Below the pieces are notes generated by a model. It did not search any database. It worked only from the letters and a program-made list of their open reading frames with translations, and had not been told where the DNA came from. Positions 1,090 to 43,740 of a stretch of DNA of 64,000 bases are shown piece by piece. The position numbers and the translations under genes are program-made. Source of the stretch: Blastococcus saxobsidens. Its GTDB lineage: Bacteria > Actinomycetota > Actinomycetes > Mycobacteriales > Geodermatophilaceae. Every line of letters starts with the position of its first letter. Within the stretch, counting starts at the first letter, position 1. The DNA is taken from NCBI RefSeq assembly GCF_002938435.1, contig NZ_POQT01000025.1, forward strand, positions 1-64,000, in the 5' to 3' direction.

Positions 1090-4088
<2,999 letters not shown>

Positions 4089-38304: not shown

Positions 38305-38344
38305 GGTAGGCGCCTACCGTCCGCCGTCCACGGGCACGAGTGCC
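38305..38344. promoter_or_regulatory. Two palindromes upstream of the formate dehydrogenase start
   Basis: GGTAGGC-GCCTACC (38305-38318) and GGCAC-ga-GTGCC (38333-38344) lie between the FAD oxidoreductase and the fdh gene. The second is just before the ribosome-binding site GGGAGG, so it could affect translation. Function is unproven. Confidence 0.4.
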
Positions 38345-38357
38345 ACGGGAGGGCTTC

Positions 38358-41300
38358 ATGAAAACCTGGCTGGATGCATGGCCGGTGTTCCGGCAGCTCA
38401 CCGGATCCGACCCGTCGGGGCGTGGTGAGGCGGTTCGCAGCAAGCGGACCGACACCCTGATCCCGCGGACGGCGACCGCCGACCGGGTCGTGCAGAGCAT
38501 CTGCCCCTACTGCGCCGTCGGTTGCTCGCAGCGGGTATTCGTCGAGGACGAGCAGGTCGTGCAGATCGAGGGCGACCCGGACTCGCCCATCAGCCGGGGG
38601 CGGCTGTGCCCCAAGGGCGCGGCGAGCAAGAGTCTGGTCACCAGCGGGACCCGCCAGACGAAGGTGAAGTACCGCCGTCCCCACGGGACGGAGTGGGAGG
38701 ACCTCGACCTCGACACGGCGATGGGCATGATCGCCGACCGCGTGATCACAACCCGTCGGGAAACCTGGCAGGACGAGGTCGACGGCAAGCGGGTCAACCG
38801 CACGATGGGGATAGCGAGCCTCGGAGGGGCGACCCTCGACAACGAGGAGAACTACCTCATGAAGAAGCTCTACACGGCCCTGGGCGCGGTCCAGGTCGAG
38901 AACCAGGCGCGCATATAGCACTCCTCGACGGTCCCCGGTCTGGGGACCTCGTTCGGTCGTGGCGGCGCCACGACGTTCCAGCAGGACCTCGCGAACTCCG
39001 ATTGCATCATCATCGAGGGCTCGAACATGGCCGAGGCCCACCCGGTGGGCTTCCAGTGGGTCATGGAAGCCAAGGCGCGGGGTGCCACGGTCATCCACGT
39101 CGATCCCCGGTTCACCCGCACCAGCGCGCTGGCCGACCTGCACGTGCCGCTGCGCGCGGGGAGCGACATCGCCTTCCTCGGTGGCCTGATCAACTACGTC
39201 CTGCAGCACGAGAAGGAGTTCCGCGAGTACGTCGTCGCCTACACCAACGCGGCCGCGATCCTGCGGGAGGATTTCCAGGACACCGAGGACCTCGACGGCC
39301 TGTTCTCCGGCTACGACCCGGAGAAGGGGCAGTACGACGAGACCACCTGGCAGTACGAGGGGGTCGAGGTCACCGCTGCGGCCGGCCAGCGCCAGTCGCC
39401 CAAGCCGGGGGCCTCCGGCGCCTCGGTCGGTGCCGAGTCCGGCGAGGACTCGGATGCGGAGGAGCACGAGCAGGGCGCCTCGGAACAGTCCGGCAGCGGC
39501 GGCCCTCCGGTCGGCGGGAAGCCCCGTCGCGACGAGACGCTGCAGCACCCGCGCTGCGTCTTCCAGGTGCTCAAGCGGCACTACGCCCGCTACACCCCGG
39601 AGATGGTGCACGAGGTGTGCGGCGTGGAGCCGCAGCTGTTCCTGAAGGTGGCCGAAGCGCTCACCAGCAACTCCGGCCGCGAACGGACCAGCGCCTTCGT
39701 CTACTCGGTGGGCTGGACCCACCACACCGTGGGGGTCCAGTACATCCGGGCCGCCAGTGTCCTGCAGGCGCTGCTGGGCAACATGGGCCGGCCCGGCGGC
39801 GGCATCCTGGCGCTGCGCGGGCACGCCAGCATCCAGGGGTCGACCGACATCCCGACGCTGTACAACATCCTCCCCGGTTACATCCCGATGCCCTCGGCCC
39901 GGGAGGACGCGAGCCTCGACGACTTCGTCGCCGAGGCGGCCGGCTCCGTCGGCTACTGGGGCAACATGAAGAAGTACGCGGTCAGCTTGCTGAAGGCCTG
40001 GTGGGGCGAGGCCGCGCAGCCGGGCAACGACTTCTGCTTCGACTACCTGCCGCGGCTGACCGGCGACCACAGCTCGTACCAGACGGTCGCCCAGCAGATC
40101 CAGGGCACCGTCCCCGGCTACTTCCTCGTCGGGGAGAACCCGGCGGTCGGGCACGCCAACGCCAAGATGGCCCGGCTCGGGCTGGCCAACCTCGAGTGGC
40201 TCGTCGTCCGGGACCTGCAGCTGATCGAGTCGGCCACCTTCTGGGCGAACGCCCCGGAGATCGAGACCGGTGAGCTGGCGACCGAGGAGATCGGCACCGA
40301 GGTCTTCTTCCTCCCGGCCGCGGCGCACGTGGAGAAGGACGGTTCGTTCACCAACACCCAGCGGCTCCTGCAGTGGCACTCCCAGGCGGTGGAGCCTCCC
40401 GGCGACTGCCGGAGCGACCTGTGGTTCTACTTCCACCTGGGCCGCATGATCCGGGAGAAGCTCGCCGGGTCCACCGACCCGCGGGACCGGCCGGTCCTGG
40501 ACCTCACCTGGGACTACCCGACGCACGGACCGGTCGACGAGCCCAGCGCGCACGGCGTGCTGCGCGAGATCAGCGGCACCGGACCGGACGGCACGGCGGT
40601 GGACGGCTACACCGCATTGCAGGACGACGGCTCGACCAGCTGCGGCTGCTGGATCTACTCCGGGGTCTTCGCCGACGAGGTGAACCAGGCCAACCGCAAG
40701 AAGCCGCACACCGAGCAGGACCTCGTCGCGGCGGAGTGGGGCTGGGCGTGGCCCATGAACCGGCGGATCCTGTACAACCGGGCCTCCGCCGACCCGGACG
40801 GCAAGCCGTGGAGCGAGCGGAAGAAGTACGTCTACTGGGACGAGGACGCCGGCAGGTGGAGCGGCCCCGACGTCCCGGACTTCCAGGCCACCAAGCGGCC
40901 GGACCACGTGCCGCCGGAGGGCGCCGAGGCCGAGGACGCCCTCGGTGGCACCGACCCGTTCATCATGCAGGGCGACGGCAAGGCCTGGCTGTTCGTGCCG
41001 GCGGGCCTGGCCGACGGGCCGATGCCGACCCACTACGAGCCGGCCGAGTCGCCGGTGCCGAACCCGCTGTACTCCCGGCAGGCGAACCCGTCGCGCAAGG
41101 AGCTCCGGGGCGCCTGGAACCGGGCCAACCCCGCGATGAGCGACGCGTTCCCGTTCGTCGTCACCACCTACCGGCTGACCGAGCACCACACCGCCGGCGG
41201 AATGAGCCGGACCCTGGAGTACCTGGCCGAGCTGCAGCCGGAGTTCTTCTGCGAGGTGAGCCCCCAGCTGGCCGCGGAGCGGGGGCTGGAGCACCTGGGC

Positions 41301-41651
41301 TGGGCGACGCTGGTGAGCACGCGCAGCGCCATCGAGGCGCGGGTCCTGGTCACCGAGCGGATGCGGCCGCTACGGGTCGCCGGTAGGGAGGTGCACCAGA
41401 TCGGCCTCCCTTACCACTGGGGCAGGAACGGCATCACGACCGGCGACTCGGCCAACGACCTGCTCGGGGTGGTGATGGACCCGAACGTGCACATCCAGGA
41501 GTCCAAGGTCGCCACCTGCGACATCCGGCCCGGCCGGCGGCCGCGGGGTCCCGCGCTGGTGGATTTCGTGGAGGGCTACCGCCGTCGTGCGGGGGTCGAG
41601 ACCGGGCTGCTGGGACGCAACGGGCGCGCGCCCATCGAGGAGCGATCATGA
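38358..41651 (+). CDS. fdhA: Formate dehydrogenase alpha subunit with UAG-encoded selenocysteine
   Basis: This 1097-residue molybdopterin enzyme oxidises formate. The N-terminal [4Fe-4S] cluster is Cys49, Cys52, Cys56 and Cys84 (CPYCAVGC, LCPKGA). Residue 187 is the Mo ligand: QARI is followed by TAG (38916-38918) and then HSSTVPGLGTSFGRGGATT, the conserved formate dehydrogenase signature in which relatives have U or C. The frame then continues uninterrupted for 910 codons with the DxxFTRTS and C-terminal molybdopterin dinucleotide-binding domains. A SECIS-like hairpin follows the TAG. No Tat signal is visible. ATG 38358 has GGGAGG at good spacing. A Gly/Ser/Glu-rich linker is inserted near residue 360. 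Standard gene finders would split it at the TAG. The stop overlaps the ATG of the Fe-S subunit. Confidence 0.92.
38916..38951 (+). promoter_or_regulatory. SECIS element after a UAG selenocysteine codon
   Basis: TAG at 38916-38918 is followed by 11 bases and then GGTCCCC (38930-38936), loop GGTCT (38937-38941) and GGGGACC (38942-38948). This is a perfect 7-bp stem. A lower CGA/TCG pair (38926-38928 with 38949-38951) leaves a bulged C at 38929. The 11-base spacing and GGTCU-type loop match the E. coli fdhF SECIS, which SelB recognises. Confidence 0.85.
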
Positions 41652-42685
41652 CCGCCATCAGCTCGGCGAGCGCCGCCTTCAGGGGCCAGGATCGAGGGAA
41701 CCGGCTGTTCGGCCCGGTTCCCGACGTCACCGGCGACCGTGGCTACGCCGACGACCACCCCGCCCGGGTCGGCTTCTTCACCGACACCTCGGTGTGCATC
41801 GGCTGCAAGGCCTGCGAGGTCGCCTGCAAGGAGTGGAACCTCCTGCCGATGGACGACGCGGAGGGCACGGTCGACGCCTTGGGCCTGACCGGGGCGTCCT
41901 ACGACAACACCGGGATGCTGGGGGCGAACAGCTGGCGGCACGTGGCCTTCGTCGAGCAGAGCCGTGCGGTGGACCTGCCGATGCCCACGGTCGGACCTCC
42001 GGGCGCCGCCGACGGGCAGCGGCCGCTCGAGGATCCGCCCGTCGTGCACCCGCAGGTGCCCGCATCGGCGACGACGGCGGAGCAGTCGGCGCCGTCGCAG
42101 ACCGCTTCGGGGGACCGCGAGATCCGCTGGCTGATGTCGTCCGACGTCTGCAAGCACTGCACCCATGCGGCCTGCCTCGACGTCTGCCCGACCGGGTCGC
42201 TGTTCCGCACGGAGTTCGGCACCGTGGTCGTGCAGGAGGACATCTGCAACGGCTGCGGCTACTGCGTGCCCGCCTGCCCGTACGGGGTGATCGACCAGCG
42301 CCAGGACGACGGCCGGGTGTTCAAGTGCACCCTCTGCTACGACCGGCTGACCGACGGGCTCCAGCCGGCCTGCGCATCGGCCTGCCCCACCGAGTCGATC
42401 CAGTTCGGCGATCTCGATGCGTTGCAGGCCCGCGCCGACCAGCGGCTGGCCGCGCTGCAGGAGAAGGGGGTCGAGGGCGCCCGTCTCTACGGGCGGGACG
42501 AGACCGACGGGGTCGGCGGGGCGGGCGCGTTCTTCCTGCTGCTGGACGAGCCGGAGGTCTACGGCCTGCCGCCGGACCCGGTGGTCACCACCCGGGACCT
42601 GCCGGCCATGTGGAGGTCCGTCGGGGCAGGTGCGGCGATGGTGCTCGGGTTGATCGCCTCGGCCTTCGTGGGACGGCGTCGGTGA
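41648..42685 (+). CDS. fdhB: Formate dehydrogenase iron-sulfur (beta) subunit
   Basis: This 345-residue ferredoxin-like subunit carries four [4Fe-4S] motifs. In order they are CIGCKACEVACKEWN, CKHCTHAACLDVCPTGS, CNGCGYCVPACPYG and the CTLCYDRLTDGLQPACASACP arrangement, as in E. coli FdnH. It passes electrons from the catalytic subunit to the membrane quinone site. A Pro/Ala-rich insertion (about 115-150) separates the first and second motifs. The C-terminus has one membrane anchor (VGAGAAMVLGLIASAFVG). ATG 41648 overlaps the fdhA stop, and its own stop overlaps the likely GTG of the NrfD subunit. The three genes are tightly coupled. Confidence 0.94.
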   Translation: MTAISSASAAFRGQDRGNRLFGPVPDVTGDRGYADDHPARVGFFTDTSVCIGCKACEVACKEWNLLPMDDAEGTVDALGLTGASYDNTGMLGANSWRHVAFVEQSRAVDLPMPTVGPPGAADGQRPLEDPPVVHPQVPASATTAEQSAPSQTASGDREIRWLMSSDVCKHCTHAACLDVCPTGSLFRTEFGTVVVQEDICNGCGYCVPACPYGVIDQRQDDGRVFKCTLCYDRLTDGLQPACASACPTESIQFGDLDALQARADQRLAALQEKGVEGARLYGRDETDGVGGAGAFFLLLDEPEVYGLPPDPVVTTRDLPAMWRSVGAGAAMVLGLIASAFVGRRR

Positions 42686-43740
42686 CCGCGGGGGGAGTGC
42701 CGGAGGACGTAGGGGTACCGGGTGCCGGATGGCGGCGGGCCGACGGTCCGCCGGCCCAGGACCGTGAGCAACGGCGTCGCCGAGGAGGCCGCGGGGAGAT
42801 CCCCATGGTCGACGAGGTCGAGTTCACCTCCTACTACGGCCGGCCGATCATCAAGCCACCGGTGTGGAAGACGCCGGACGTGCCGCTCTACCTGTTCCTC
42901 GGGGGCGCCGCCGGGTCCTCCGCCGTCCTGGGCGCACTGGCCGAGGGGACGCGCCGCCCGGCGCTGGCCCGGGTGGCCCACCTCACCGCGGGCGGCGGGG
43001 CGCTGGCCTCGGTGGCCTTCCTCATCCACGACCTGGGCCGGCCGAGCCGGTTCCTCAACATGCTGCGGGTGCTCAAGACCACTTCGCCGCTGTCGGTGGG
43101 GTCCTGGATCCTCGCGCCGTTCAGCGCGCTGACCACCGCGACGGCCGGCGCCCACCTGCTGGGCAGGTTCCCGTTGCTGCGCCGGTTCACGGGCGCGGGG
43201 GCAGCGGTCCTGGGCGGGCCGATGACGACGTACACGGCAGCCCTGCTGGCCGACACAGCCGTCCCCTCGTGGCACGAGGCCCACCGGGAGCTGCCGGTCG
43301 TCTTCGCCGGTTCGGCCATGGCCGCGGGCGGGGGGATCACGACGGCCCTCACGCCGCTCGACGAGGCGGGGCCGGCGCGCAGGGTCGCGGCCATGGGCGC
43401 GGCGATTGAACTCGCGGCGATGCACCGTGTCGAGCACGGTCACGGGCTGGTCAGCGAGCCTTACCGCACCGGCCGGGCCGGGAAGCTGCTGAAGACGGCA
43501 CGTGCGTGCACGGCGACGGGGGCAGGACTGACGCTGCTGGCCGGTCGCAGCCGTACGGCCGCGGCCGTGAGCGGAGCCCTGCTGGCGGTCGGGTCGGTGC
43601 TCACCCGGTTCGGCGTCTTCGACGCCGGTATGGCCAGCGCGAAGGATCCCCGATACACCGTCGAACCACAGCGAGCCCGTGCCCGCGCAAGTGAGGCGGC
43701 CGCATCGCGCGCGGCCGCGGGCAGCCGTAGGGGGTCATGA
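42682..43740 (+). CDS. nrfD: NrfD-type membrane anchor subunit of formate dehydrogenase
   Basis: This 352-residue polytopic membrane protein of the NrfD/PsrC family is the quinone-reacting subunit. The core begins EFTSYYGRPIIKPPVWKTPDVPLYLFLGGAAGSS and includes HLTAGGGALASVAFLIHDLGRPSRF, a family landmark. GTG 42682 is chosen because it overlaps the fdhB stop (GTGA). The resulting basic N-terminus (REQRRRRGGRGEIPMVDEVEF) resembles related actinobacterial NrfD proteins; ATG 42805 would drop it. The C-terminus is Arg/Ala-rich. It replaces the cytochrome b subunit used by E. coli FDH-N. Confidence 0.87.
   Translation: MTAGGVPEDVGVPGAGWRRADGPPAQDREQRRRRGGRGEIPMVDEVEFTSYYGRPIIKPPVWKTPDVPLYLFLGGAAGSSAVLGALAEGTRRPALARVAHLTAGGGALASVAFLIHDLGRPSRFLNMLRVLKTTSPLSVGSWILAPFSALTTATAGAHLLGRFPLLRRFTGAGAAVLGGPMTTYTAALLADTAVPSWHEAHRELPVVFAGSAMAAGGGITTALTPLDEAGPARRVAAMGAAIELAAMHRVEHGHGLVSEPYRTGRAGKLLKTARACTATGAGLTLLAGRSRTAAAVSGALLAVGSVLTRFGVFDAGMASAKDPRYTVEPQRARARASEAAASRAAAGSRRGS

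Follow-up and report, generated by a model that had tools for sequence, protein, structure and literature searches.

In E. coli, the selenocysteine (Sec) codon of the formate dehydrogenase gene fdhF is decoded with SelA, SelB, SelD and tRNA-Sec, the same components as in the Blastococcus system described here. The fdhF hairpin carries a GGUCU loop at a distance from the Sec codon equal to that in Blastococcus fdhA. Sec insertion competes with RF2 at UGA in E. coli, whereas in Blastococcus it would compete with RF1 at UAG. Other actinomycetes have an orthologous enzyme (NF041513) with the same Sec position and the same SECIS stem and loop. They use UGA and a UCA tRNA-Sec, with mostly ATT, ATA or GTT before the Sec codon, whereas the Blastococcus gene has UAG, a CUA tRNA-Sec and ATA.

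Decoding of UAG as Sec has reportedly been described in Geodermatophilus and Blastococcus; Mukai et al. in 2016 are said to have found it there with formate dehydrogenase and UGSC genes, and labelling was reportedly carried out in both genera. A CUA tRNA-Sec was confirmed in three Geodermatophilaceae genomes by Santesmasses et al. 2017, who added an AhpC gene (PMC5330540), in line with the statement of an earlier note on this DNA that a UAG-decoding tRNA-Sec had already been reported. The phenomenon is therefore already known for the genus Blastococcus and for the Geodermatophilaceae. The present system resembles the reported one in its CUA tRNA-Sec, in the UAG of its formate dehydrogenase and AhpC-like genes, and in the presence of UGSC genes in the family. 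It differs in extending to a further species and gene and to 100 or more genomes, in the AUA codon preceding UAG, and in a relative with two types of tRNA-Sec. What is added here is that most of the family has UAG-Sec as a fixed trait, with the rare AUA invariably preceding the UAG of formate dehydrogenase. Neither the AUA rule nor a genome carrying the two types of tRNA-Sec together was found described in the part of the literature that was covered.

A formate dehydrogenase gene with an internal UAG

The window analysed here is a stretch of 64,000 nucleotides from the genome (4.52 Mb, 86 contigs) of a soil actinobacterium belonging to Blastococcus. It contains fdhA, the gene for the catalytic subunit of formate dehydrogenase, at 38358-41651 (+ strand), which encodes 1097 residues when the UAG at codon 187 is read through. 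Translation of this frame bore out the claim that a single TAG interrupts it. The sole internal stop is the TAG at 38916-38918 (+ strand), flanked by the residues QARI*HSSTVPGLGTSFGRGG. The read-through product matched NCBIfam NF041513 (actinobacterial formate dehydrogenase) full-length, over residues 4-1077, with 1974.7 bits against a cut-off of 1400, and contained the expected Pfam molybdopterin domains. On the evidence of sequence comparison, the gene almost certainly encodes a selenocysteine formate dehydrogenase in which UAG specifies the predicted Sec 187.

The iron-sulfur (beta) subunit gene (41648-42685, + strand) overlaps fdhA by 4 bases and was recognized by Fer4_11 (84.6 bits); its best NCBIfam match, TIGR01582 FDH-beta, scored 170.5 bits, under the cut-off of 334.7 for that family. 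A further frame at 42805-43740 (+ strand) probably encodes an NrfD-like membrane subunit, a name suggested by its sequence and position.

A mechanical ORF caller split fdhA into 38340-38918 (192 aa) and 39027-41651 (874 aa), as had been predicted for standard gene finders. Since gene finders that allow only UGA for Sec split these enzymes, formate metabolism is likely to be under-annotated in the family. The whole window was also scanned for stops flanked in the same frame, before and after, by 80 or more open codons with coding-like composition. Two stops were found, the fdhA TAG and a TGA at 1092 (- strand). The latter was rejected as a recoded stop; an in-frame ATG follows immediately and the site looks like an ordinary gene junction.

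In the nearest relatives outside the family the codon corresponding to the TAG is UGA (n=58) or a Cys codon (n=1), which agrees with the claim that relatives carry U or C at this position. The Geodermatophilaceae relatives all have TAG. In a survey of 115 genomes of the GTDB family Geodermatophilaceae, TAG was present at the formate dehydrogenase site in 100/115 genomes, with 120 sites altogether, and TGN in 0/115.

To a mechanical gene finder the TAG is an in-frame stop, and it could be a nonsense mutation or a sequencing error that leaves a pseudogene or a truncated protein. We consider this exceedingly improbable. Coding composition runs on both sides of the TAG, the NF041513 match spans the full length, the hairpin described below covaries, and conservation of the identical TAG at so many sites already refutes the idea. 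A sequencing error in particular is effectively excluded by comparison with other genes, because the TAG recurs in an ortholog 95% identical to the window fdhA, in a second formate dehydrogenase of the same genome, and throughout the family sites counted above.

Decoding machinery of the Blastococcus genome

Rfam and ARAGORN found nothing when run on the window alone; a different contig carries the tRNA-Sec and sel genes. The one tRNA-Sec of the genome (G000:C15:13444-13535) has the anticodon CUA. It scored 65.8 bits with RF01852, for which the gathering score is 47, and tRNA-Sec was the best match of its clan. No UCA tRNA-Sec was detected in the window's genome, and a second match above the tRNA-Sec threshold proved to be tRNA-Ser. 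The selD gene lies upstream of the CUA tRNA-Sec on the opposite strand, with selA and selB downstream. All three were above cut-off, with 415.1 bits for selA (TIGR00474), 285.2 for selB (TIGR00475) and 386.8 for selD (TIGR00476). The earlier note had proposed a search of the genome for a CUA tRNA-Sec together with selA, selB and selD, and all are present in one cluster. It had also stated that a lack of sel genes, or a tRNA-Sec with UCA only, would speak against its reading; neither is the case here.

ARAGORN labelled the CUA tRNA as tRNA-Pyl, a label given for its anticodon, and pyrrolysine decoding likewise reads UAG by a CUA tRNA. It is nevertheless very improbable that the fdhA UAG specifies pyrrolysine or is decoded by an ordinary amber suppressor. 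Pyrrolysine decoding needs PylS and tRNA-Pyl and no SECIS, whereas the tRNA found here is called tRNA-Sec by the covariance model and sits between selD and selA-selB. In relatives this codon is Sec (UGA) or Cys, and other genes of the genome still end in UAG.

Stop codon usage was sampled by calling genes crudely, from composition, in the window and in two further stretches; of the 58 frames obtained, 51 ended in TGA and 7 in TAG. Among these 7 TAG codons, two correspond to the Sec positions of the formate dehydrogenases, and a third genuinely terminates selB (L009 8643-8645). About one in ten sampled genes, selB included, ends in UAG. RF1 is encoded in the genome. Because RF1 is present and selB and other genes end in UAG, UAG is not reassigned genome-wide. 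This use of UAG as a stop in the same genome was counted against the UAG-Sec reading. As UAG would have two meanings in one genome, the SECIS must decide between them.

In the mechanism we propose, SelD would supply selenophosphate to SelA, which would turn serine on the CUA tRNA-Sec into Sec. SelB would then bring the charged tRNA to the ribosome and bind the SECIS 3' of the UAG. The fdhA UAG would be read as Sec in competition with RF1, so that the protein would contain selenium, while UAG codons that have no SECIS would stay stops. The UAG-Sec reading is supported by the finding that in E. coli a CUA tRNA-Sec reads UAG using the normal SelA and SelB (PMC3834832).

A SECIS hairpin within the coding sequence

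A putative SECIS hairpin was located by folding and covariation at 38926-38951 (+ strand), inside the fdhA coding sequence. Its upper stem pairs 38930-38936 with 38942-38948 and encloses the loop GGUCU at 38937-38941, which corresponds to +21 to +25 relative to the U of the UAG codon. The lower stem, 38926-38928 with 38949-38951 (offsets 10-12 with 33-35), showed no conservation. The earlier note had described a SECIS-like hairpin at the standard distance, and this held up, with the loop beginning at +21 and a stem that covaries.

Covariation was examined in 110 sites (52 TAG, 58 TGA), which reduce to 88 distinct rows of 78 nt. The pair at offsets 17/29 joins the third base of a Val codon to that of a Gly codon; it occurs in five forms (GU, TA, TG, CG and GC) and is standard in 88/88 rows. 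At 16-30 all 88 rows have either TA or TG. Among 51 distinct 40-mers, 340/357 cells of the upper stem were paired, compared with 316 on average and 326 at most over 1000 shuffles. As the rows are related, this is a rough control, and the diversity of pair types carries more weight. When the stem was slid out of register, 114-230 cells were paired. In the Actinacidiphila ortholog with Cys (GTG TGC) the loop sequence is gone. By folding energy alone the hairpin stands out only moderately, with z -2.2 over 71 nt and z -1.5 over 45 nt; not being extreme by itself, this energy was counted against the UAG-Sec reading. That reading rests on the CUA tRNA-Sec in the sel cluster and the TAG at the UGA codon of relatives as well as on SECIS covariation.

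Distribution of UAG-Sec in the family and class

Among the 115 family genomes, the tRNA-Sec anticodon is CUA in 104 and UCA in 8. The UCA genomes are G067, G069-G071 and G073-G075, all drafts from genera g5-g7, together with G059, which has both types. A CUA tRNA-Sec and UAG sites were found in 9/12 sampled genera. The survey outside the family covered 395 genomes drawn from the class, with counts taken from lists; 69/69 stop-codon formate dehydrogenase sites were UGA and 76/76 tRNA-Sec were UCA. The co-occurrence of CUA tRNA-Sec with UAG sites across the family, while all outside it are UCA and UGA, further supports the UAG-Sec reading. The earlier note had called this the rare UAG variant. 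The UAG variant is indeed used here, but it is not rare within the family.

UAG sites are found in several kinds of gene. Two formate dehydrogenases of the window's genome (contigs C25 and C3) have UAG, as does an AhpC-like gene, at its UxxC motif, GDWUPYCC; a weak hairpin (z -0.8) follows the UAG of the AhpC-like gene. A search of the same genome for a UGSC selenoprotein gave no hit. In the UGSC family, which is unrelated to formate dehydrogenase, all internal stops are TAG, and the hairpin loop has an offset identical to that of the formate dehydrogenase hairpin.

A formate dehydrogenase of Geodermatophilus sp. TF02-6 (L207) is placed apart from those of the family, apparently through horizontal transfer. 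It groups with the UGA enzymes of Streptomyces and Actinomadura in a 30-row group (support 100). It carries ATA TAG at about 3556-3561, and its nearest kin have UGA or Cys. To judge from its placement, the gene would either have been acquired and then fitted to the UAG code or have been changed by gene conversion. Because the UGSC genes, the AhpC-like gene of the window's genome and this horizontally placed enzyme also have TAG, they add to the case for reading UAG as Sec.

Several genomes contain, besides UGSC genes with UAG-Sec, stop-free UGSC relatives with Cys (TGC) at the site (L091-L098).

The anticodon switch

In the seven resident UCA tRNA-Sec genes of the family the anticodon loop is closed by a T-A pair, in the CUA genes by C-G. 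The pair has switched along with the anticodon, and most of the remaining sequence is common to both. Because this pair differs while most of the rest is common, the CUA tRNA-Sec looks like a resident tRNA that was altered and not like a foreign replacement. Two base changes are needed to convert the anticodon UCA to CUA, and two to convert the codon UGA to UAG. A path through a UUA anticodon and UAA codon, with the anticodon also reading UAG by wobble, is plausible. Nature offers a clean example here: in most of a bacterial family, a recoded stop has moved from UGA to UAG. Members were sampled on either side of the switch (the UCA genera g5-g7 and the outside-family actinomycetes with UCA and UGA), which makes the steps of the code change testable.

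The codon preceding UAG

The codon directly 5' of the fdhA UAG is ATA (38913-38915, + strand), which we propose may act as a 5' context element. The pattern used to search for family sites allowed any NTN codon ahead of TAG, and ATA was found in 120/120. Ile is encoded by ATC at 126/129 codons in selA, selB and nine genes of the window; ATA occurs twice there, one of these being the site itself. The codon before UGA in the 69 sites outside the family is ATT in 46, ATA in 21, GTT in 2 and ATC in 0. In the 58 nearest relatives it is ATT in 40, GTT in 14, ATA in 3 and ATC in 1. Judging by these sites, an A or U directly 5' of the formate dehydrogenase Sec codon is retained despite a strong pull to C, and before UAG it is always A. 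The codon before UAG elsewhere is GAT or GAC in UGSC genes and TGG in the AhpC-like gene, so AUA is no general rule for UAG-Sec. With moderate confidence, these patterns suggest that AUA has a context effect on competition with RF1.

The invariance of AUA might instead be a founder effect, an ancestral AUA left unchanged since, and we take this as a serious contender, if slightly on the improbable side. A single clade (51 rows, support 99) takes in nearly all UAG formate dehydrogenases, AUA also precedes UGA in some relatives, and the absence of AUA before UAG in UGSC and AhpC-like genes also fits a founder effect. However, synonymous sites nearby do vary (GCC/GCG/GCA and CGC/CGG/CGT), AUC makes up nearly all Ile codons in the sampled genes, and the UGA relatives avoid AUC too. 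In addition, the separately placed TF02-6 gene has AUA-UAG while its kin have mostly GTT or ATT, which local gene conversion could explain. The invariant AUA leads to a simple hypothesis on the 5' part of the Sec signal, one that can be tested.

A draft genome with both types of tRNA-Sec

The genome with both types, G059, has the usual CUA tRNA-Sec adjoining the sel genes on contig C11. A canonical UCA tRNA-Sec (81.8 bits) was found on contig C17 (L078, 1173-1263, - strand), in an IS-rich region with transposase-like frames nearby. About 300 bases from this tRNA is the start of a CMD/AhpD-like gene of 192 codons (L078, 1579-2154, + strand; TIGR01926 above cut-off, PF02627). An in-frame TGA falls at CFYU, a motif given for selenoproteins in NCBIfam NF041238, and is followed by a hairpin. 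The UGA-interrupted gene was found in no other family genome; its relatives in those genomes carry Cys and are at most about 40% identical. Its relatives among plasmids had only <60% identity, and there were none among viral contigs.

Contamination was considered as the origin of C17. Its tetranucleotide make-up correlated with that of the sel-locus contig at r 0.85 for the second 20 kb and 0.80 for the first 20 kb. If C17 belongs to this draft assembly, the species would use two Sec codons, UAG and UGA. The combined proposal, that AUA is a selected, strict 5' element favouring Sec over RF1 and that G059 uses two Sec codons, is put forward tentatively and is on balance improbable.

In another relative, two complete selD/tRNA-Sec(CUA)/selA/selB loci lie ~59 kb apart on one contig (G110:C255; L088, L089).
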